Shown here piece after piece: positions 2,691 to 40,725 of a DNA stretch of 64,000 nucleotides. Origin of the DNA: Circinella minor (Eukaryota; Mucoromycota; Mucoromycetes; Mucorales; Lichtheimiaceae); NCBI GenBank assembly GCA_016758965.1, contig JAEPRB010000085.1, positions 82,843-146,842 on the forward strand, in the 5' to 3' direction. The notes beneath the pieces are model-generated. The model saw only the letters and a program-made list of their open reading frames with translations, searched no databases and had not been told where the DNA came from. The translations under genes and the position numbers were made by a program. Position 1 is the stretch's first letter. Each line of letters begins with the position of its first letter.

Positions 2691-2825
2691 TAACAAAATA
2701 ACAAAGAATAATTAGTAGAAAGATTGCACCCAAAAATATAAACAAATGTTACGAGACCATGGAAGTGGTGGTAACAGAAAAAAGTAATGAAAAAGAAGTA
2801 ATAAGAAATAATAACATGGCAAGTG

Positions 2826-3230
2826 TTTACGAGTAAGCTTTGCCCAGTGCATGAACAAAGCTGTATAGCAAAAAGTTACTCGGTTCGATGCTGTGATCCT
2901 GTAGTGGTACTCCTGGCATCTTTTTTAAAAGAAAATAAATAAATATAAAAATGTCGCAACTTTTTACGAGTAAGCTTTGCCCAGTGCATGAACAAAACTG
3001 TATAGCAAAAAGTTACTCGGCTCGATGCTGTGACCCTACAGTGGTCCTCCCGGCGCCTTTTTTAAAAGAAAATAAATAAATATAAAAATGTCGCAACTTT
3101 TTACGAGTAAGCTTTGCCCAGTGCATGAACAAAATTGTATAGCAAAAAGTTACTCGGCTCGATGCTGTGACCCTGTAGTGGTCCTCCCGGCACCTTTTTG
3201 AATAAAAAATAAAAACGTTGCGACTGTTTA
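2826..3230. repeat. Three tandem copies of a 137-bp hairpin-forming unit
   Basis: Units begin at 2,826, 2,963 and 3,100, a period of exactly 137. Each holds CGAGTAAGCTTTGCCCAGTG and, about 45 bases on, AAAAAGTTACTCGG. CGAGTAA/TTACTCG can pair, and in the first unit GCTTTG/CAAAGC can pair inside it. The third unit is truncated at its end. A single related unit lies at 17,157-17,270 in copy B, so amplification happened in copy A, or loss in copy B. The segment GGTTCGATGCTG loosely resembles a tRNA B box, but no tRNA folds here. Confidence 0.7.
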
Positions 3231-13787: not shown

Positions 13788-16528
13788 ATGAAATATTCTA
13801 CTATTATTTTCTTTGCCTGTGCTTTGGTTCTTTCCACAGCATACACTGGTAATGCTCAACCAGCTAGTGGCATTCAAAACGTTGACAGTAATGTTGCCAG
13901 TCATCAAAACAGTGGTAAGCTACAATATAAAGGAGTAGAGTTCACGCTTTTTATAATAATAGAGAAAAGAACAAATACTAACAGAAATCACTGTTTAAAT
14001 TATAAACAATGCCCATTGCTTTAAAAACAAATGTGTTGGTTATCAGCACCTCGTAAGTTAAAAAATAAGAGAGTAGAGTTCACGCTTCTTAAAACGACAG
14101 CAAAGAGAACCAATACTAACTGAATTCAATGACAAAATGATAACTAACATCTGTTACTTTTATAAAACCAAATGTGTGAATTATTAATAGAGAGTAAGTT
14201 ACGAAAAGGAGTAGCGCTAACAGATCTTATACGTAATATCACAAGAGAAAGATTAAATACTAACAGAATTTATTGTAAAAATGATTGATGACATCCATTA
14301 CTTTAAACCAAATGTGTGCATTATTAATAGAAAGTAAGTTACTAAAAGGGTGGCGCTGACAGTTCTTATACGTAATATCACAAGAAAAAGATCAAATACT
14401 AACAGAATTTATTGTAATAATGATTAATGACATCTGTTACTTGAAAACCGAACGCTTGGATTATTAATAGAACGTAAGTGAAACAGTATGTAAGGGAGTT
14501 AACACGTCTTATAATGTTACAAAAAACAACAAATACTAACAGAATCCATTATAAAATTTTCAAATGACACTGATTACTTTAAAACCAAATGTTTAAATTA
14601 TTGATAGCTTGTAAGTTATAGTATATAAGAGAGTGGAGTTAACTTAGTTTACGATGACCTAAAAAGAACAAAGACTAACAGAATTCATTGAAAAATTATA
14701 AATGACACTCATTGCTTTCAAACCAAATGTGTGGATTATTAATAGGTGGTGAGTTACAAAATAAGGGATTGAGGTTGATGTTTCTTATAATGGGAGAAAA
14801 ATAGAATAAAAAAATACTAACAGAATTCATTTCAAAAAAATTATAAATGACATCCATTTCTTGAAAACCAAATGTGTGAATTACGTATAAATAGGATGTA
14901 AGTTAAAAATAAGGGAGTGAGATTAATGTTTCTTAATAGGATAGGAGGAAAAAGAACAAACATTAACAAAATTCAATGTAAAAATTATCAATGACACTGA
15001 TTACTTCGAAACTAAATGTGTGGATTATTAATAGTTTGTAAGTTACAAATTTAAAGGAGTGAAATCAATGTTTTTTATAATGGGAAAAAAAAGAACAAAA
15101 AACATTAACAGAATTCATTGTAAAATTTATAAATGGCATCCATTTCTTTAAAACCAATCATGTGAATTATTAATAGGCAGTAAGTTTAAGAAGAATAAGG
15201 GGCTCGGGTTAATATTTCTTATCATGGCACAAAAATGATCAAATACTAACAGACCTTATCGTAAAAATTATAAATGACGTCCATTGCTTTAAAATCGAAT
15301 GTGTGAATTATTAATAGGCGGTAAGTTAGAAAATACGGAAGTGGAGCTATAAGGCTCATATAAGGGCACAAAAAAAATACTAACAGAAGTTATTGTAAAA
15401 ATTATAAATGACTTCCATTATATTAAAACCGAATATTTGAACTGTTAATAGGAGGTAAGTTAAATTACAAGCGACGAACGTAAAACTTTATTAAACGTCA
15501 CAAAAAAGAACAATATTAACAGAGTTCATTTTAAAAATTATAACATCCGTTATTTTAAAACGTAATGTTTGGATTATCATTTATAGAGGGTAAGTTAAAA
15601 AAAAAATAAGAGAATTGAGCTAACCTTTATTATTATCGCACCAAAAAGATCAAATGCTAACATAATTCATTATAAAATTTTTAAATGACACTGATTACTT
15701 TTAAAACCAAATATTTGAATTACGTATAAATAGGATGTAAGTTGAGGATTTAAGGGAGTGGGATTAATGTTCTTATAATGGGAGGAAAATAGAACAAAAA
15801 ATACTAACAGAATTCATTTTAAAAAAATATAAATGACATCGATTTCTTGACAACCAAATGTATAAATTATTAATAGGCAGTAAGTTTAAAAAGAATAAGG
15901 GGTTGGAGTTAACATTTCTTATCATGGCACAAAAAAGAGCAATTACTAACAGAATTTATTGAAAAAATGATTAAAACCAAATGTGTGGATTATTAATAGA
16001 GCGTAAGTTAATAAAGGAGTAGCGCTAACAGATCTCATACGTAATGGCACAAAAATAATCAAATACTAACAGAGTTTATTGCAAAAATTATAAATGACAA
16101 CCATTATTTTAAAACGAAATATTTGGATTATTAATAGATAGTAAGTTAAAAAATAAGAGAGTTGATCTAACTTTGTTATTATCGCACCAAAAAGATCAAA
16201 TACTAACAGGATTCATTTTAAAAATTATAAATAACACTGATTACTTTAAAACCAAATGCGTGGATTATTAATAGCTAGTAAGTTACAGTATAAGAGAGTG
16301 GAGTTCACTTATTTTATGATGACCTTAAAAGAACAAAGACTAACAGAATTCCTTGTAAAAATTATAAATGACACTGATTACTTTTAAAACCAAATGTGTG
16401 GATTATTGATAGCTTGTAAGTTACAAAATAAGGGAGTGAAGTTAGCATTTATATACGTAATGGCAAAAATCACTTTAATAGAACCAACAAATACTAACAA
16501 AGTCTATTTAAAAAATTATATAGGCTAA
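13788..16528 (+). CDS. Secreted Cys-rich peptide encoded by single-codon microexons (copy A)
   Basis: Exon 1 (13,788-13,914, 127 nt, ending in phase 1) encodes a signal peptide (MKYSTIIFFACALVLSTAYT, likely cleaved near GNA|QP) and a short Ser/Asn/Gln-rich stretch. A GTAAGC intron follows. A 6-nt exon CACCTC sits at 14,047. Seventeen 3-nt exons follow at 14191 AGA, 14331 AAA, 14471 AAC, 14608 CTT, 14746 GTG, 14895 GAT, 15035 TTT, 15177 GCA, 15318 GCG, 15452 GAG, 15587 AGG, 15734 GAT, 15877 GCA, 16000 AGC, 16138 ATA, 16275 CTA and 16413 CTT. Each lies between ...ATAG and GTAAGT (once GTGAGT). The terminal exon begins at 16,524. Joined in order, the tail reads APQKKPCGFCSGEGCKHTTC, with a TAA stop just inside the terminal exon: 62 residues, cysteine spacing C-x2-C-x4-C-x4-C. 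All splice sites are inferred from sequence. Function is unknown; a secreted signalling or effector-like peptide is one guess. Confidence 0.75.
13915..16523 (+). repeat. Tandem array of about 19 intron-repeat units (copy A)
   Basis: Unit lengths run from 123 to 149 bp, mostly 134-143. The consensus order is GTAAGTTA, a GGGAGTGGAGTTAACG-like segment, TTATAATGGCACAAAAAAGA, AAATACTAACAGAATTCATT, TATAAATGACATCCATTACT, TTAAAACCAAATGTGTGGAT and TATTAATAG, then three variable bases. Between the TACTAAC branch-type motif and the closing ATAG, about 70 bases, AG is essentially absent except right beside the branch motif. Every unit thus looks like a full intron, and the array looks like repeated duplication of intron plus codon. 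Confidence 0.9.
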
Positions 16529-25659: not shown

Positions 25660-27556
25660 ATGAAATATTCTACTATCATTTTCTTTGCCTGTGCTTTGGT
25701 CCTTTCCGCAGCATACACAGGTAATGCTCAACCAATTGTTGACACTCAAACTACTAATAGTAATACTGGCGCTCAGAGAAACAGTTGTAAGTTAGAATAT
25801 AAGGGAGTGGAGTTCATGGCTCTTATAATAAAAGAATAAATATTAAATACTAACAGGATTTATTGTAAAAATGATCAATGACATCTATTACCTTTAAACG
25901 AAATGTGTGAATTATTAATAGTCGGTAAGTAGTGGAGTTAACGTTTTTTATAATGACCAGAGTGAAAGAAACAAATACTAACAGAATTCATTGTAAAATT
26001 ATATATCATATTCAATACTTTAAAACCAAATGTTTGGATTACGTATTAATAGTGGGTAAGTAGTGGAGTTGATGTGTTTTTTTTTATAATGACAGGAAAA
26101 AAAAGAACAAATATTAATAGAATTTATTATAAAAATTATGAATGGCACCCATTACTTTAAAATCAAATCAATAGCTCGTAAGTTAAAAAAATAAAAAAAG
26201 TGGAGTTAACTTTTGTTATAACGGCTCAAAAAAAAAAAAAAAAAAAACCAATACTAACAGAATTCTTTGTAAAAATTATAAATGACATCCATTATGTACT
26301 TTAAAACCCAATGTACGGATGATTAATAGGTCGTAAGTTAAAAATAAAGGAGTCGAGCTAACCTTTGTTATATTGAACAAATACTAACAGAATTCAATGT
26401 AAAAATTATAAATGACATTTATTACTTTAAAATCAAATGTTTGGATTACGTATTAATAGAGGGTAAGTGAGAAAATAAGGAAGTGGAGTTAACGCTTCTT
26501 ATGATGGAATGAAAAAGACCAAATACGTACTAACATAACTTATTATAAATATTATAAATGATATGCATTACTTTGAAATCACTGTATGGATTATTAATAG
26601 ATGTAAGTAGTATAGTTACGTAGCGTTTTTTATAATGACAGGACAAAGAACAAATACTAACAAAATTCATTGTAAAATTATATATGATATTCAATACTTT
26701 AAAATCAAATGTTTGGATTCTTAATAGTGGGTAAATAGTGGAGCTGATGTTTTATTCATAATGACAGGAAAAAGAACAAATATTAACAAAGTTTATTGTA
26801 AAAATTATAATTATCATCCATTACTTTAAAATCAAATGCGTGGATTATTAATAGCCTGTAAGTAGTGAAGATCATGTTTTTTTTATAATAAAAGAAAAAT
26901 TATCAAGTACTGACAGAATTTATTGTAAAAATTATAACTGGCATTCATTACTTCAAAACCAAATGTATGGATGATTAATAGGGAGTAAGTATAAATGGAG
27001 TTATGTAACGCTTTTTATAATGACAGAAAAAAAAACAAATACTAACAGAATTTATCATAAAACTATCTATGATATTCAATACTTTAAAATCAAATGTTTG
27101 TATTATTAATAGTTTGTAAGTTAAAAAAAAATAAGGAAGAGCAGTTAACATTTCTTATAATGACAGAAAAAAGATCAAATACTAACAAAATTTATTGTAA
27201 AATTACAAATGACATTCATTACTTTAAAATCAAATGCGTGGATTATAAATATAGCCAGTAAGTCAAAAAAAAAGAAAAGTGAAGGAGCGGCGCTAACAGT
27301 TCTTTTAATGATACAAAAAAGTGCAAATACTAACAGAATTTATTATAATAATTATAAATTAACATCCATAAATTTGAAACCAAATATGTGGATTATTAAT
27401 AGTCGGTAAGTTAGAAAATAAGGGAGCGAAATTAGCATTTCTATAAAGACAAAAATCACTTTTATAGAACTGGGTAGTCGTTCAAAAAAGAACAAATACT
27501 AACAGAGTTCATTGTAAAAAAAAATATAGGCTAGAACCAGAAGTGACCCTGTCTGA
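25660..27556 (+). CDS. Secreted peptide encoded by single-codon microexons (copy B)
   Basis: Exon 1 (25,660-25,786) is again exactly 127 nt and ends in phase 1; its signal peptide differs from copy A only in STAYT to SAAYT. Microexons follow at 25922 TCG, 26053 TGG, 26175 CTC, 26330 GTC, 26460 AGG, 26601 AT (two bases), 26728 TGG, 26855 CCT, 26982 GGA, 27113 TTT, 27255 CCA and 27403 TCG. The terminal exon starts at 27,530. Using all of them gives the tail FVARQDWPGFPSARTRSDPV with stop TGA at 27,554. Skipping the 2-nt exon gives FVARQVAWISIG and TAG at 27,532, the position equivalent to the copy A stop. The tail has no cysteine and no resemblance to copy A. The 5' site after the eighth exon is GTAAAT. 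Because of the 2-nt exon this copy could be damaged; which splice form is used is unknown. Confidence 0.65.
25787..27529 (+). repeat. Tandem array of 13 intron-repeat units (copy B)
   Basis: Units of 122-155 bp have the same consensus order as copy A. Some carry a CGTA insertion at a TA inside the otherwise fixed motifs, for example GGATTACGTATTAATAG at 26,037 and 26,444 and AAATACGTACTAAC at 26,521. Unit number differs from copy A (13 against 19). Confidence 0.88.
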
Positions 27557-27853: not shown

Positions 27854-30250
27854 CAGTAAGTATTCGCTAAACCGGTACTCGTTAAACCGGTATTTCGCTA
27901 AACCGGTAGTGTCTCTCAATTATTTTTTATATACTTAGTAAAATACCGGTAATTCCCTAAACCGGTATCCGGTGAACCTTTCCAAATATTTACCGGAGTT
28001 ATATTAGTCTTTTTTCCTTATATATATATATATGTGTGTGTGTATATAGATAATATTAATTTTTTTATTGGTTCTGTGATCAAATCGGATAATATTTTTA
28101 TGATTTAATTGGTAAAATCAGTGATTCGAGCTTGTTTATATGTCACCTCAGCTCTTTCCTTTGTTTCTAGAAGCTTAATTTTTTTTCGGACCAAGTAAAA
28201 AATATCCAGATCGTCCTGGTCATCTAGGGAAAGTCTGTTAACAAATTGCTGGTAGTATTGCCTTTTTTCCGCCAATTTGAGACGGAGACTTTCTTCTTCT
28301 TCCTCGATTACATCTTCCTCAATTTCTTCATCTACTTGTTTTTCATCATCTACTATATAATTGTGTTGTTAATAAAATTTATTCCTGCTTATTTATACAA
28401 CTGCTTAACATACTCGATATTAATACATACTTTGTTGCGAATTCATCAACTGATTGAAACGCTGATCCATTGTCAAAATTTCATGAATGTCATCATTTTC
28501 ATCATTAGAAGATAGGTTGACTGTATTAAGACTATCTTCGCCTGTACCAACTGTTACAAGATGACTGTTGATTTGTTCATTTAAATCAAGATCATCTTTC
28601 AAAACGGCGGCTTCCTGTGCAGCAAGTTCTTCTTCAGAAACTTCATTAGACATAAGGCCAGTGTGAAGAAAACAATTCCTGATTGTTTCAGGTGTTACTC
28701 TTTCCCATGCCATTTTTGACCAATCCAGAGCCTGTTTCAATTTGATATCATAAAGTTTTTCAAGCTTCCCTTCATTATATCTAATAGTCGCTTGATGGAA
28801 TAACATGGCACTAGATATATAATAATTATGTAAGTTATTTAAACAGAAAACTGATGATTAAAATGTGTATAAAAGTATACTATTAAGGTATCATGCATAC
28901 CGGTATTTCTTTTTGAATGCAGCAATGATTCCAGCATCGAGGGGTTGGTAATGCGAAGTAGTATTTGGTGGGAGCATGCAGATCTCAATGTTTTCTAGCT
29001 TTATGTCCAAATTTTTATGTGAAGGAGCATTGTCCATCAGCAAAAGAACTCTTTTACCTTTATGAGCGGCGTATACAGCACTATCAATTTTTCTTAAGAT
29101 TTTTCTGAAAATCTCTTTTGTCATCCATGCCTTTGTGTTGTTATAGTACTTGTACGCATTGGAAACTATAGACAAAATAATTTAAATCATAAATAAAAAC
29201 TTTAAATTTTAATTATGAGCCAAATATATTTACTTACTTTTTCCATTAAATCCTTGCCCAGTTTCATATCGACCAATAAAATAAGGAGAGATTCGATGGG
29301 ATCCATCAGCATTACAAACACAAACAACAGTAATTCGATTCTTATCGACTTTGAGACCACCAATTGACTGTTTAGATATAGTTCGCCGTGGTACTTGCTT
29401 ATAAAAGAGCCCTGTCTCATCAATATTATAGATGCGTTCAGGTGGAAACTCAGAAATCTTCGCTTTCACAGCATTGAATTCATCTTGAATGTTATCAGCA
29501 TTAACCTCCACCTCTCCAGATTCACCATGGATACGACGAGATTTAAAACCATATCGCCTCATAAACTTAGTTAACCAGCCAATGGAAAACTGGAAATCCT
29601 CTGGTACTTCAAGCTGTCGACGCCTACACTGGATTTTGGCTTGGTGAATAATGCTTGCCATGGAGATAGGTTGGCTTGCATTAGCCATATCAGTAATGTA
29701 CTGGGCAAGTAACAATTCAAGTTCTGGGAGTGCAGGTTCTCGAATTTTTTTGGCATTAAGACGGTGTTCAGTCATTGCCATATATTCTTCTTCTTTCTTC
29801 AAAATATCACTTATAGTTTGTTGACCAGGTAATTTATCCAGCTTAAATTCGTCTTTAGCCCATCGAGCAAGTTCAGATTGAGTTATTTTTTCTCTTTGCT
29901 TTTTCAAACAAATAGCAAGTTTTTGGCGGTTTGTCAATGAAGATTTTTTGCCCATTATTGATAATAATTAATAGTCGATAATTGAATACAGTAAAGTAAG
30001 AATAAAATAAAAGAATAAAAACGATCTTTATTAAAGAAAATGTCATCTTTCTTTATATAATATAGCTTAATTTAATTATAGTTATTCTTCCAGTATATTC
30101 TACATATTACTACCAGCTTAATTTGGCTATAGTTATTTTTCCAGTATATTCTATTACTATAGACTGAGTTTCAATTCGTTAAACCGGTAATTCGCTAAAC
30201 CGGTGCCAATCCTCACATATATTGGGTACCGGTTTAGCGAATACTTACTG
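27854..30250 (-). mobile_element. Intact Tigger/pogo DNA transposon
   Basis: Perfect 24-bp terminal inverted repeats lie at 27,854-27,877 (starting CAGTAAGTATTCGCTAAACC) and 30,227-30,250, flanked by TA on both sides (27,852-27,853 and 30,251-30,252). Subterminal copies of TTCGCTAAACCGGTA repeat just inside both ends. It encodes one apparently complete transposase on the minus strand. The matching uninterrupted site is at about 16,848 in copy A, so insertion followed the duplication. Confidence 0.93.
28420..29955 (-). CDS. Tigger/pogo-type DDE transposase
   Basis: Cuts and joins its own element at the terminal repeats. Exons on the minus strand are 29955-29238, 29165-28901 and 28810-28420. 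Phases agree and the total is 457 residues. The N-terminus (MGKKSSLTNRQKLAICLKKQ) starts the first helix-turn-helix of the CENP-B/pogo type. A second DNA-binding block follows (FQFSIGWLTKFMRRYGFKSR, about residues 120-140). The catalytic core shows the acidic triad in NIDETGLFYK, LLMDNAPSHK and YQPLDAGIIAAFKKKYR. The tail is acidic. Both introns have good GTAAGT or GTATGC and TAG borders. No stop or frameshift was found, so the element may still be active; this rests on sequence integrity only. Confidence 0.92.
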
Positions 30251-30907: not shown

Positions 30908-32782
30908 TTAACGAATTTCAAACATTCGTTCTTCCAGTATGAGATCATCGAAAAAGTGATTATCATCTTTTACAGAACACATACCGATTGCCTCGTAGTA
31001 ATCTTGGTTCCTCTTGATAACAGGGTAGCGTACAGTGTCGTTTTTATGCGTTGTAAACCGTACACCGGTGAGTATTACATATTGTCTATCAGCTTGAAAT
31101 ACTTCTGTTAAATCATCAAAACTAAACCATGCTACCGGAAGATCGGAACTTTCAGGTATCCATTGAAGATTCTTTTTTATCTGAAAAAAGTGTGATAAAT
31201 TTGGAATAGATACCATGATATCAACATAAGCTCCAGGGAATAGTTGGGTGTCCCCTCTTCGTATTTTGTAAAGCCCTATAAGCTTTTCATTAGAAGAGTC
31301 TGGTAATCGTAATCTAATCACTAGTGTCCAGCAACCCTCGCCATTCAATTTTTGTTGAGGAAGAGATGGTATATCTTCGAATGCGATAGATTGAAAGTCC
31401 AACATTTCGGTATAATATCGTCTATTCGGTATTCCACAACATGTTACCTGTAAAGTTTCTTCAATGACCATGTAATTGTTCATACATGTTTCGTAACCAC
31501 CATATTTATAATGCTCTCCATTAACACCTGTCCAAGATGGTAAATCATATTTTTTTATGGGAATACCGTTTTCTGTACCTCTTTTGGTGTCATCTTCGAT
31601 ACCACGGTTGTTGAATGCGGTTTTACACATGGTTTTATAACCATGATCTGTATATGGTCCAAAACATAGAATACTGAGATCTTTTTTTGCTAAAAGATAA
31701 TAAAATCGCATCATCAGTTCTTCAATATCTTGATTGTAATCAATTGTAATTTGTTCCATAATCTCCGGAAAGATGTTTGCAAGTGCAAATACGCGGTCAT
31801 GTTCTTTGGTGCTTGTGCGTGCGTGGGCATAATGTAAGATAGTGGCAACATCGCAGTCAAATTCCCTGTGACAAATTGGAAATATTTCCTTGGACATGCG
31901 ATTTGACCAACAATTTACGTAGGGACCCACAAAAAGCATGTTTCTTGATAGTAGTGTCTCTTCCAAAGTCCACATACGCTTCATCCATTGAGATCCTAGA
32001 AAATGGTCGTAATCAATTTCGTAAGACCAAAAGTCGTTTCCAAGGACGAAACTGAGTAGCTTTGTCACTACCATTGTTTGTGTTGATTGTGTTGTCACTA
32101 ACTCTAATACCGATGGTGTTGTCACTAACTCTGATACTGATAGTCGTTTCAGAATAATTGACAATAACAATGCTCTTATCGCAAAGTCTGGTTTAAATGG
32201 TATTTTCGTTAACTCTGGTACCAATGCTATTGTACAATGTGCATTTTTGTATATCTTATGCATCTGACGAATTTCACAGCGTTTTTCCTCGTCGTCATTT
32301 TGGTTGATGCACATTTGATCATACCAAATATATTTAATATTAAAATCCTTGCATATCTCTTGTATAACTTTTTCAAATGTGACAGACTTGGTTAGTTTAA
32401 GAAATTTTAAAATTTTTTGTAAACGCGTGGCTGGATATACAATTTTGTGTTTTCCTTCATCATTCCGTTCTGTATTCCCCGTGGTTACATTTTTTACAAC
32501 TTTGCCGGATTGATTCCATGAATAAGATAGTGCACAATATCCTTCCTGGACTTCAGAACTTTGAACAACTACCATATCTGATGTACGAACTAGGTAACTC
32601 GGCATAAATTGTGGTCTATCCAGCGTTGATGGTACTTTATCGGCTGGTGGGACGGGGGTATAACGTTTGAAGTAACCTGGACTTTCATCTAGTTCTGGTG
32701 CAAATCGCTTCTTGGAGTATGTAATATACGTCATTGTTTTCTGTTTTGAATATAATAAATTGGTCAGTCTATATAGTCTCAT
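30908..32782 (-). CDS. HET-domain protein
   Basis: A single 624-residue exon. HET domains of filamentous fungi act in heterokaryon incompatibility and related cell-death responses; here the domain is recognised by YCALSYSWNQSG (about residues 82-93), YIWYDQMCINQ (151-161) with the following EIRQMHKIYKNA, WMKRMWTLEE, and HDRVFALANIFPE. The C-terminal half (about 400-624) shows no repeat or NTPase motif that I recognise. A short duplicated stretch (SELVTTPSV/LELVTTQST) lies near residue 220. The start may be the first ATG or the second one (MTYITYSKKR) 16 codons later. It lies beside the Tigger insertions, outside the tandem duplication. What it recognises is unknown; its role outside Ascomycota is inference. 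Confidence 0.88.
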   Translation of the reverse strand: MRLYRLTNLLYSKQKTMTYITYSKKRFAPELDESPGYFKRYTPVPPADKVPSTLDRPQFMPSYLVRTSDMVVVQSSEVQEGYCALSYSWNQSGKVVKNVTTGNTERNDEGKHKIVYPATRLQKILKFLKLTKSVTFEKVIQEICKDFNIKYIWYDQMCINQNDDEEKRCEIRQMHKIYKNAHCTIALVPELTKIPFKPDFAIRALLLSIILKRLSVSELVTTPSVLELVTTQSTQTMVVTKLLSFVLGNDFWSYEIDYDHFLGSQWMKRMWTLEETLLSRNMLFVGPYVNCWSNRMSKEIFPICHREFDCDVATILHYAHARTSTKEHDRVFALANIFPEIMEQITIDYNQDIEELMMRFYYLLAKKDLSILCFGPYTDHGYKTMCKTAFNNRGIEDDTKRGTENGIPIKKYDLPSWTGVNGEHYKYGGYETCMNNYMVIEETLQVTCCGIPNRRYYTEMLDFQSIAFEDIPSLPQQKLNGEGCWTLVIRLRLPDSSNEKLIGLYKIRRGDTQLFPGAYVDIMVSIPNLSHFFQIKKNLQWIPESSDLPVAWFSFDDLTEVFQADRQYVILTGVRFTTHKNDTVRYPVIKRNQDYYEAIGMCSVKDDNHFFDDLILEERMFEIR

Positions 32783-38675: not shown

Positions 38676-40725
38676 TTGTTTTTTTTTTAAAAAAAATATA
38701 TATATAACATAACATATAAAAAAAAACATATAAAAAAAGAATTGAAAAGCTGATATATATTTTTTTTTCTTAAAATAATTAATTCAAATTATAATCATGC
38801 ACACAACAAACAAAAACAAACAAACATAATATTATAAATTTAAAAGGTGTAGTGTTTTTTTTTGGGGGGGGTAGGGGTGGAGGAGGAAGGAGGGGGGGTC
38901 TTTGATTGATTTTCTTGATAATAATACAAGGTTTTCATTCATGGTCCATGCAACTTCATTTTTCAAAACCTGATGTTTTTTTTTTTTTTACTTGGTATTT
39001 TTTTTTTCATTTTGGCAATACTATGAGTGGTTATTTTTGGTTGTTACTCCTTTTTTTATTTTATTTTATCTCCATGACACTATTATTATCAGTAAGTATA
39101 ATTGTTTGTTCCTTGGCAACGGTTACAGCATTATAAGAAGAAGGTAGTGTAGTTGGTTGTCGTCGTTGTCGTTGAGAGTGAGTTTAAATAATACTTGATG
39201 ATGACCTGAGTAGGAGGAGGGGAGGAATGGAATTGTTATATAAAACAAGGTATCAAAGTGAGTTGTTACAAACAAGAATCCAGAAGCATGAGATTCTTGA
39301 TGAACATTATATAGACAATAATTAATAAAGTGTTATAGAGTAATAGAAAAATGATATAATTAGATGGGTTTTAGAGATGTAATAAAAAGGTTGAATTTTT
39401 CCAATATACAGTTCTTTGAGCAAAGCATGTGTATACAAAAAAGTGACCGATTATAAATGTATTATAATAAAAAAACACATTATAGTTACTTGTGTATTTT
39501 TTTTAAAAAAATAAGAGTATTCATTATGTGTTTTATGTTATAGGCTATCTGAAGCATTTTAAAGCTTTTAAAAGTATGATTGACGATTCTTATTTAGATT
39601 GATAAGTATCCAATAGTAATATTCCATTTTGGTCTAACACTGTTAGACCATTGGTTTTTTTTTTTTTTTTTTAAAAAAAAAACTCCAACTTTGAAGCATA
39701 AAACAAATCGACAAGCGATTGGATTCCAACTTTTTTTTTTCTTTGACATTAAAGATTAATACCCCGTACATTGTTCCGTTATAACGCTAATATGTCTAAT
39801 AAGAATGAGATTTAAGGATTTTATGCAATTCATTTTTCTAGAACACTGTCCGATATCGTTCTATTGAGCGGGGAAAATAATTTTTACTTATGAGTTGCAG
39901 GAACGTCTTTTTCTAAAACTCAAAAAGGTTGAAAGTGCTGAACATCATCAACTGTCTTTTATATAAAAAGTGTATGGCAAGTAGTCCAACTTTTCTCTTT
40001 TGCATGATTTTTATACAATAATAAGAACAGTTTTTTTTTGGGGGGGGCGCCTTAGTAAAATAAAGTACTCACGTTTTTTTTTCTTATGAATCAATAATAT
40101 TTAATATAATAGTGATGAGCAAGTTATAATAAGTAATAAAGACAAGAAAACTATTTATTTTTTTACAATATGAACGTCTGTGATGTTCTTTTGCAAGACA
40201 TTTATTAGATAAATGAACCCTATTTTTTTGTTTATCCGATCCATTGTAACTTTAAGATCAACAACAACAATGTGTTTATATGAGACAGTGAGTGATATCA
40301 AACACAACATGCTTCTCTTTTTTCTCGAATAATCTTTCCCCCCTGAACTTCTTTAACAAACTACGTAAAAAAAAACTTTTTTCTCCCTCCCCCATTTTTT
40401 TTCTTTTTTTATAAAAGTCCCAAAATAATTTTTTTCAAGAAAGAAAAGCACGTGGTAATTACACCAAAAAAAAGTGAACTGGGTCTCTTTTTGTATTCCC
40501 CCATTTTTTTAAATGTCCGTCGTAACTCTCTTTCCAAAAAATCAAATCAAATTAAATATATTAAAAAAACCACTTTTTTTGTTGTCCCCACACACACACA
40601 CGCACACAAAGAAACACACATCTTTCCCTCTTTCTTTTTCTTTTTTTTCTTCCTCTCTCCTTTTTTTTTTCCACGTTCCTTTTTTATATATATAAAAAAA
40701 AAGAAAGAAAAGAAAAGAAAAAAAG
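38640..40725. other. Intergenic between ARF and Ypp1-like genes
   Basis: It holds 3' simple repeats of (ATA)n at 38,645-38,673, G-runs at 38,862-38,898, and the promoter region of the next gene with C/T-rich tracts and (AC)n at 40,588-40,608. No further gene was found. Confidence 0.45.

Follow-up and report, generated by a model that had tools for sequence, protein, structure and literature searches.

Predicted runs of single-codon exons in a family of genes for small putative secreted proteins of Circinella minor

Genes assembled from many very small exons are known from schistosomes and aphids. The micro-exon genes (MEGs) of schistosomes have 10-20 exons per gene; these are mostly 15 bp long, with a range of 3-81 bp according to the abstract of the source and of 6-81 bp according to its text, and the introns measure from 100 to nearly 5000 bp (PMC10526429). 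Aphid bicycle genes have ~17 exons on average and evolve rapidly, which is ascribed to strong positive selection, and megacycle spreads about 2000 aa over >100 microexons (PMC9168663), or ~20 aa per exon by our own division, so not single codons. Spliceosomes can include exons of 1-3 nt, as in the 1-nt exon of Arabidopsis APC11 and the 3-bp exon of Drosophila hth (PMC4674806, PMC7392893), and in recursive (ratchet) splicing an adjacent acceptor and donor are used in successive steps (PMC5126111). Within the Mucoromycota, the SP7-like effectors of arbuscular mycorrhizal fungi are a secreted family whose members are marked by a conserved intron (PMC11333574).

The family that we describe here from Circinella minor (Mucorales, Lichtheimiaceae) resembles each of these systems in part. 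MEGs encode signal-peptide secreted proteins, have many tiny exons that are mostly multiples of three and are hard to annotate automatically (PMC10526429); likewise, a signal-peptide-like first exon and many very short exons were found in the 13 arrays that we modelled, a likeness of gene architecture. Unlike the MEG exons of 6-81 bp, mostly 15 bp, the internal exons of the arrays in Circinella, a fungus, are nearly all 3 nt, up to 51 running, with closely similar introns of ~136 nt. Bicycle and megacycle genes, which encode putative effectors in insects, are rich in unusually small internal exons, almost all of which share one phase (PMC9168663), as do nearly all internal exons of the Circinella arrays. 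Whereas APC11 and hth carry lone ultra-short exons in ordinary genes, Circinella has runs that would encode the whole mature region. The SP7-like genes are described with one conserved intron before the first repeat rather than with a micro-exon array (PMC11333574). The abutting sites of recursive splicing are matched by a single 0-nt unit in one array, g7. The original prediction for this locus knew of no described gene with a run of single-codon exons; none was met in our literature search, which covered the titles and abstract openings of part of the matches, and within the same titles and abstract openings there was no description of a Circinella micro-exon family.

We analysed a stretch of 64,000 nt (henceforth the window; contig C85, JAEPRB010000085.1, positions 82843-146842) and modelled the gene g2 within it as follows, with the signal peptide called by eye.

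13788..13914, forward strand: exon 1, 127 nt, with start codon, signal peptide and short polar stretch, ending in phase 1
13915..14046, forward strand: intron 1, GTAAGC...TACTAAC...ATCAG
14047..14052, forward strand: exon 2, 6 nt, CACCTC
14191..14193, forward strand: exon 3, AGA, opening a run of 17 successive 3-nt exons
14191..16415, forward strand: run of 17 single-codon exons with 16 introns of 120-146 nt between them
16416..16523, forward strand: terminal intron, 108 nt, acceptor 26 nt from the branch point and hand-set to TATAG/GCTA
16524..16528, forward strand: coding part of the terminal exon, GC followed by the TAA stop (16526-16528)

The 3-nt exons start at 14191, 14331, 14471, 14608, 14746, 14895, 15035, 15177, 15318, 15452, 15587, 15734, 15877, 16000, 16138, 16275 and 16413, and read, in order, AGA AAA AAC CTT GTG GAT TTT GCA GCG GAG AGG GAT GCA AGC ATA CTA CTT. 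Altogether the model has 20 exons, 19 introns and 62 residues, with the predicted product SP...NS-APQKKPCGFCSGEGCKHTTC. The original prediction, which comprised the 127-nt signal-peptide exon, the 6-nt exon, the 17 triplets and the terminal exon, was thus reproduced to the base and in its totals, as was its one GTGAGT donor, the sole one in g2, at 14749. Three of its statements needed refinement: units of 120-146 nt describe the 16 introns inside the triplet run, whereas the full set of 19 introns spans 108-146 nt, the last being the shortest; TACTAAC, expected in each unit, is exact in 13 of the 19 introns and replaced in the other six by the near variants GACTAAC, CATTAAC, TATTAAC or TGCTAAC; and the first acceptor is ATCAG rather than ATAG.

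A second family member, g3, lies within the window at 25660-27541 and had not been mentioned in the original prediction.

25660..25786, forward strand: exon 1 of g3
25922..27405, forward strand: run of 12 internal micro-exons, eleven of 3 nt and one of 2 nt
26601-26602, forward strand: the 2-nt exon, with a frame shift
27530..27541, forward strand: start of the terminal exon, GCTAGAACCAGA..., acceptor hand-set

The frame of g3 shifts because of its 2-nt exon. Our chaining program had placed the terminal AG 11 nt further downstream in g2, whose frame would then run ~20 codons into the 3' region, and 34 nt further downstream in g3; both acceptors were hand-set to TATAG/GCTA because the AG at the homologous place is the one used in the nine arrays with an automatically chosen end (g1, g4-g9, g11 and g12b).

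A search of the Circinella minor genome (46.6 Mb, 619 contigs) revealed ~12 loci of this family. The 13 arrays modelled are g1-g11 together with g12a and g12b, which lie on two contigs and may be one gene; they contain 18 (g1), 18 (g2), 12 (g3), 13 (g4), 11 (g5), 18 (g6), 51 (g7), 43 (g8), 14 (g9), 8 (g10), 32 (g11), 28 (g12a) and 23 (g12b) internal exons. Among the 289 internal exons modelled, 281 measure 3 nt, five 6 nt, one 9 nt, one 2 nt and one 0 nt, a biased count in that 3-nt sites served to train the chaining model, which scored other lengths down. We therefore counted ATAG-N{k}-GTAAGT, a measure unbiased with respect to the chaining model, on both strands of 170,783 bases of array loci: k=3 occurred at 223 sites, every other k from 0 to 15 at 0-2 sites (k=0 at one), and the reversed-motif control at no more than one. 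This excess over other spacings and over the reversed motif excludes chance as the source of the g2-type pattern. Of the 29 such sites within the window, 26 have k=3. Across the whole genome the pattern TATTAATAGNNNGTAAGTT gave 67 matches against 0 for its reversed control; a looser pattern, with 10 matches against 10 for its control, was too loose to discriminate. On viral contigs a 19-nt pattern had one match in each of 49 stretches and two in none, which we took as background.

Homology searches delimit the same set of loci. Exon 1 of g2 (42 aa) has 16 places in the genome, including itself, at E<=1, its terminal region (130 bases from ~16524) has 13, including itself, and the intron consensus has 282 matches, those listed all falling on contigs of family arrays or of two remnants. 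One of these remnants (L110, C25:38700-39300) has a single unit behind a decayed exon 1; the other (L057, C181) has three recognisable units and a terminal exon and lacks a recognised exon 1. Exon 1 ends in phase 1 in all 12 arrays that have it, with the caveats that the choice of donor was limited to phase 1 and that the donors of g11 and g12a were hand-picked; a run with unlimited donors also gave phase 1 in g1-g10, though most of its chains ended early. Early chaining broke at weak splice sites, and the model was then loosened. The internal exons keep this phase, their lengths being multiples of three save for the single 2-nt exon. The 0-nt site, in g7 (C235, reverse strand, near contig position 40703), has ATAG directly followed by GTAAGT, the form of a recursive-splicing site. 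Exon 1 of g12b lies off its contig and its frame was assumed, g12a runs off its contig and g10 has no clean terminal acceptor. Cysteines occur in the variable part of g1 (2), g2 (4), g4 (2), g5 (1), g10 (2, its end being unclear) and g11 (2), and in none of the other seven arrays. Pfam gave no family above the cut-off for the g2 product, g8 or g11. Genome searches with the concatenated tails of g8 and g11 found no contiguous copy (retrocopy), an empty result that is uninformative alone.

We asked whether the triplets behave as coding sequence, the chaining of exons having ignored codons. Joined in order, they contain no stop among 271 codons in the frame of exon 1 (12 of 13 arrays, g3 being left out for its 2-nt exon), compared with 1/283 at offset 0 and 31/271 at the remaining offset. 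Since offset 0 is nearly stop-free too, stop counts set the frame of exon 1 apart from one alternative only. Shuffling the order of the exons gave 6.0 stops on average (P=5e-5, 1 of 20,000 shuffles). In 10 of the 13 arrays, counting g2 with its hand-set acceptor and g12b with its assumed frame, a stop starts 3-15 nt inside the terminal exon; the others are g3, whose stop begins at nt 25, g10, for want of a clean acceptor, and g12a, which meets the contig end. Codon usage, scored against 1339 codons from ordinary genes of the window, favours the frame of exon 1 with +68.7 bits over 11 arrays (g3 and g10 left out), as opposed to -126.0 at offset 0 and -242.9 at offset 1, and none of 5000 order shuffles reached this value (maximum 61.9). 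Taken singly, three of the 11 arrays (g4, g7 and g8) have P<0.05, and in g2 offset 1 scores above the frame of exon 1 per codon. The predicted products include ...ARGCTVVNDSQRICF for g4, ...LDEIQYQIRETIAQLHDAISQTKDNARANLDGIVVEMLEIVVQIEQYLRDDSKN for g7, ...IDTIRDQIRAIVAELRGAIGDQKAELRARLDEIVAEIREILREALRD for g8 and ...DELIKIAAAHLDAMGKCFQDVVTCASGTQAQAGIIEN for g11. The helical hydrophobic moment exceeds that of order shuffles (P<0.03) in four of 11 arrays (g3 and g10 left out), namely g6, g7, g8 and g11, which were tested first since they looked helical and of which g7 and g8 are related. Amphipathic helices are predicted for the g7 and g8 products. From these properties we infer that the triplets are spliced and translated.

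The introns of the family are closely similar to one another, ~136 nt long and of spliceosomal type (GTAAGT, TACTAAC, ATTAATAG). The donor is GTAAGT in 251 of 293 introns and the branch point an exact TACTAAC in 194 of 281 internal introns, g10 being left out of the intron tests. Between 12 nt past the branch point and the acceptor (15,268 nt in total) we found seven AG dinucleotides where shuffles predict 646, and five of the 281 introns have any AG in this zone; from donor to branch point, 1165 were seen against 1197 expected. Since the introns are related to one another, two stricter nulls were applied to 274 of the 281 zones, which hold eight AGs: random substitutions on the consensus gave a mean of 267 (minimum 226 in 1000 runs) and permuted columns a mean of 64 (minimum 48 in 1000 runs). 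The preference of the chaining model for a distant branch point and a strong acceptor could add to this scarcity, though absence of AG was itself unscored. The exclusion implies that the first AG past each branch point must apparently be the one before the triplet, and cells thus seem to need that AG as the acceptor. The distance from branch point to acceptor has a median of 69 nt (quartiles 68-72, n=281) in internal introns, 19 of which lie outside a spacing of 60-80 nt (shortest 25), compared with 23-27 nt in all 11 terminal introns, including g2 and g3 with their hand-set acceptors. This long distance probably acts as a spacer, leaving room for both U2 and the next U1 and easing the crowding at a donor that stands 3 nt past the acceptor. 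RNAalifold, run on 80 of the 281 internal introns, returned zero energy for real and shuffled alignments alike, a result that is uninformative on conserved structure.

Codons change quickly while the introns that flank them change slowly. We aligned g7 with g8 unit by unit (44 intron pairs) and obtained a mean intron identity of 0.874 over the 43 pairs that precede an internal exon in both. Synonymous divergence (pS 0.137, four changes in 42 codons) is close to the intron divergence of about 0.126, whereas amino-acid-changing divergence is higher (pN 0.31, 30 changes in 42 codons), giving a ratio of 2.64 as compared with 1.40 in exon 1. The excess of pN over the intron rate has a binomial P of 1.8e-6; tested against pS alone, pN shows no significant excess (Fisher P=0.09). 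Over all unit pairs whose introns are 93-97% identical (n=259, of which 241 lie within g12, with g3 and g10 left out), the flanking triplets differ at 68, 64 and 36% by position. With g12 set aside, core introns diverge by 0.08 and the three triplet positions by 0.53, 0.39 and 0.43 in the 51 pairs of 90-97% intron identity. Seven successive exons of g12a read AAG; they stand among AAG units with introns up to 100% identical, which suggests that units were duplicated recently.

We therefore consider it very probable that these loci form a gene family in which a phase-1 signal-peptide exon is followed by 8-51 mostly one-codon exons and then by a terminal exon carrying the stop, with the triplets spliced in order and the protein built codon by codon. 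Donor-acceptor splicing would join the triplets in order, each step adding one codon of the mature region. Two sites separated by 3 nt are hardly likely to be bound simultaneously, and removal would therefore be stepwise: one intron is taken out, one codon is gained and the next donor is used. Judging from the sequence, all triplets would be retained in transcripts. The original reading of each triplet as an exon agrees with the open frame, the stop in the terminal exon and codon usage, and likewise with the exclusion of AG, the substitution pattern between paralogues and the 13 modelled arrays; counted against the one-codon model are its irregular members, the 2-nt exon of g3, the 0-nt site of g7 and the acceptor of g10. 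The [intron + codon] units may multiply by tandem duplication, their codons then diverging under diversifying selection. Given secretion and rapid change, a probable role for the products is as quickly evolving secreted peptides that act against other organisms or recognise them. That each codon might in addition serve as an exchangeable in-frame cassette, free to be gained, lost, mutated or skipped with the frame intact, the whole being a genome-encoded device for diversifying peptides, is a tentative idea that we regard as doubtful. If spliced as predicted, the arrays would be the most extreme subdivision into exons known to us, yielding helix-forming proteins with one residue per exon, and would challenge current ideas on how small an exon can be, how closely splice sites can stand before they hinder each other and how faithfully 50 introns in succession can be spliced out. 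They would also offer a natural system for following intron and codon evolution side by side, and would suggest that families of small secreted proteins may escape annotation and standard read mappers.

Retention of every triplet could be questioned in that nearly all are 3 nt long and in the same phase, so that any donor might be joined to any later acceptor and each gene might yield a large combinatorial set of secreted peptides. The near-uniform sequence of donors and acceptors would permit such optional use, skipping keeps the frame, and joins that skip exons produce fewer stops (50/4155) than impossible backward joins (84/3938; g3 and g10 left out of the test), though this difference comes mostly from g1, g2, g5 and g6 and may reflect position-dependent composition. 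Adjacent joins, however, have 0/277 stops, so that the full collinear product is the one that looks policed, and skipping would disrupt the helical periodicity of g7 and g8. We think optional use unlikely. A different challenge comes from the total length of the internal exons, which is divisible by three in 12 of 13 arrays and so leaves exon 1 in frame with the terminal exon as well: the two might be joined directly across one long intron in which the arrays are non-coding tandem repeats, inert or serving as recursive stepping stones. The 0-nt unit of g7 has the form of a ratchet site. Yet ratchet points are not known to leave anything in mRNA, whereas every step in Circinella would contribute a codon; a stepping stone should measure 0 nt rather than 3, and one of 289 units is 0 nt, the spacing count giving 223 sites at 3 nt and one at 0 nt. 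Inert repeats would hardly preserve a frame free of stops, the codon usage of genes and a 3-nt exon length, exclude AG or change amino acids above the intron rate, and this reading is very improbable.

Some copies are visibly damaged, which raises the further alternative that the family consists of decayed pseudogenes whose arrays were formerly expressed and are now disused. Besides the remnant on C25 and the copy on C181 that has no recognised exon 1, a copy on C321 has an in-frame TAA, and the 2-nt exon of g3 and the unclean end of g10 point the same way. Against this stand the 10 of 13 arrays that are open as far as the early stop in the terminal exon, the accumulation of amino-acid-changing substitutions without stops between g7 and g8, and the 110 bases upstream of the start codon, which are alike by eye in the ten genes displayed; general decay is the least probable of these readings. 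We also rejected introner elements, near-identical introns inserted in many unrelated genes: among the matches listed the intron sequence is confined to the family, and the insertions all share one phase and spacing.

A protein search with the g2 product (a 63-aa query with one extra G relative to the predicted 62 aa) gave no match. A profile search, from an alignment of nine rows that included the exact 62-aa product, listed three proteins, all from Circinella. P0001 of C. umbellata is identical to exon 1 of g8 at 37 of 43 residues (86%), and its gene model has no micro-exon run and reads into the intron: its last 21 residues resemble a C. minor intron read through (62%, E=1.9e-9; best E of the reversed control 0.22), so that an intron of the family type appears to follow exon 1 in C. 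umbellata too. P0002, also of C. umbellata, resembles exon 1 of g11 by eye, and its tail matched no intron. P0003, of C. minor (C216, L059), has a part like exon 1, one phase-1 intron and then an ordinary Cys-rich exon; two further two-exon genes of this kind were read by eye on C211 (L058), and the two-exon relative on C321 (19.4 kb, L032) is the copy with the TAA, which lies inside exon 1. The same kind of exon 1 is thus common to ordinary genes and to micro-exon arrays. Close to where the variable part begins there are dibasic sites, ARR in g1, QKK in g2 and VKR or AKR in the two-exon sisters, which suggest putative Kex2-type processing.

The window contains several other features. It encodes a TPR protein that is 100% identical to the Circinella minor protein INT45_009822 over 35% of the query. 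On the reverse strand, an open reading frame at 30911-32782 encodes a HET (heterokaryon incompatibility) domain (Pfam E=3.7e-18), and 29233-29955 holds a fragment of a Tc5-type transposase with HTH_Tnp_Tc5 and the start of DDE_1. At 2819-3213 a 137-nt unit is directly repeated in 2.9 copies (93% matches), and short repeats of 15/16 nt with TTCGCTAAACCG are found at 27860-27908 and 30173-30204.
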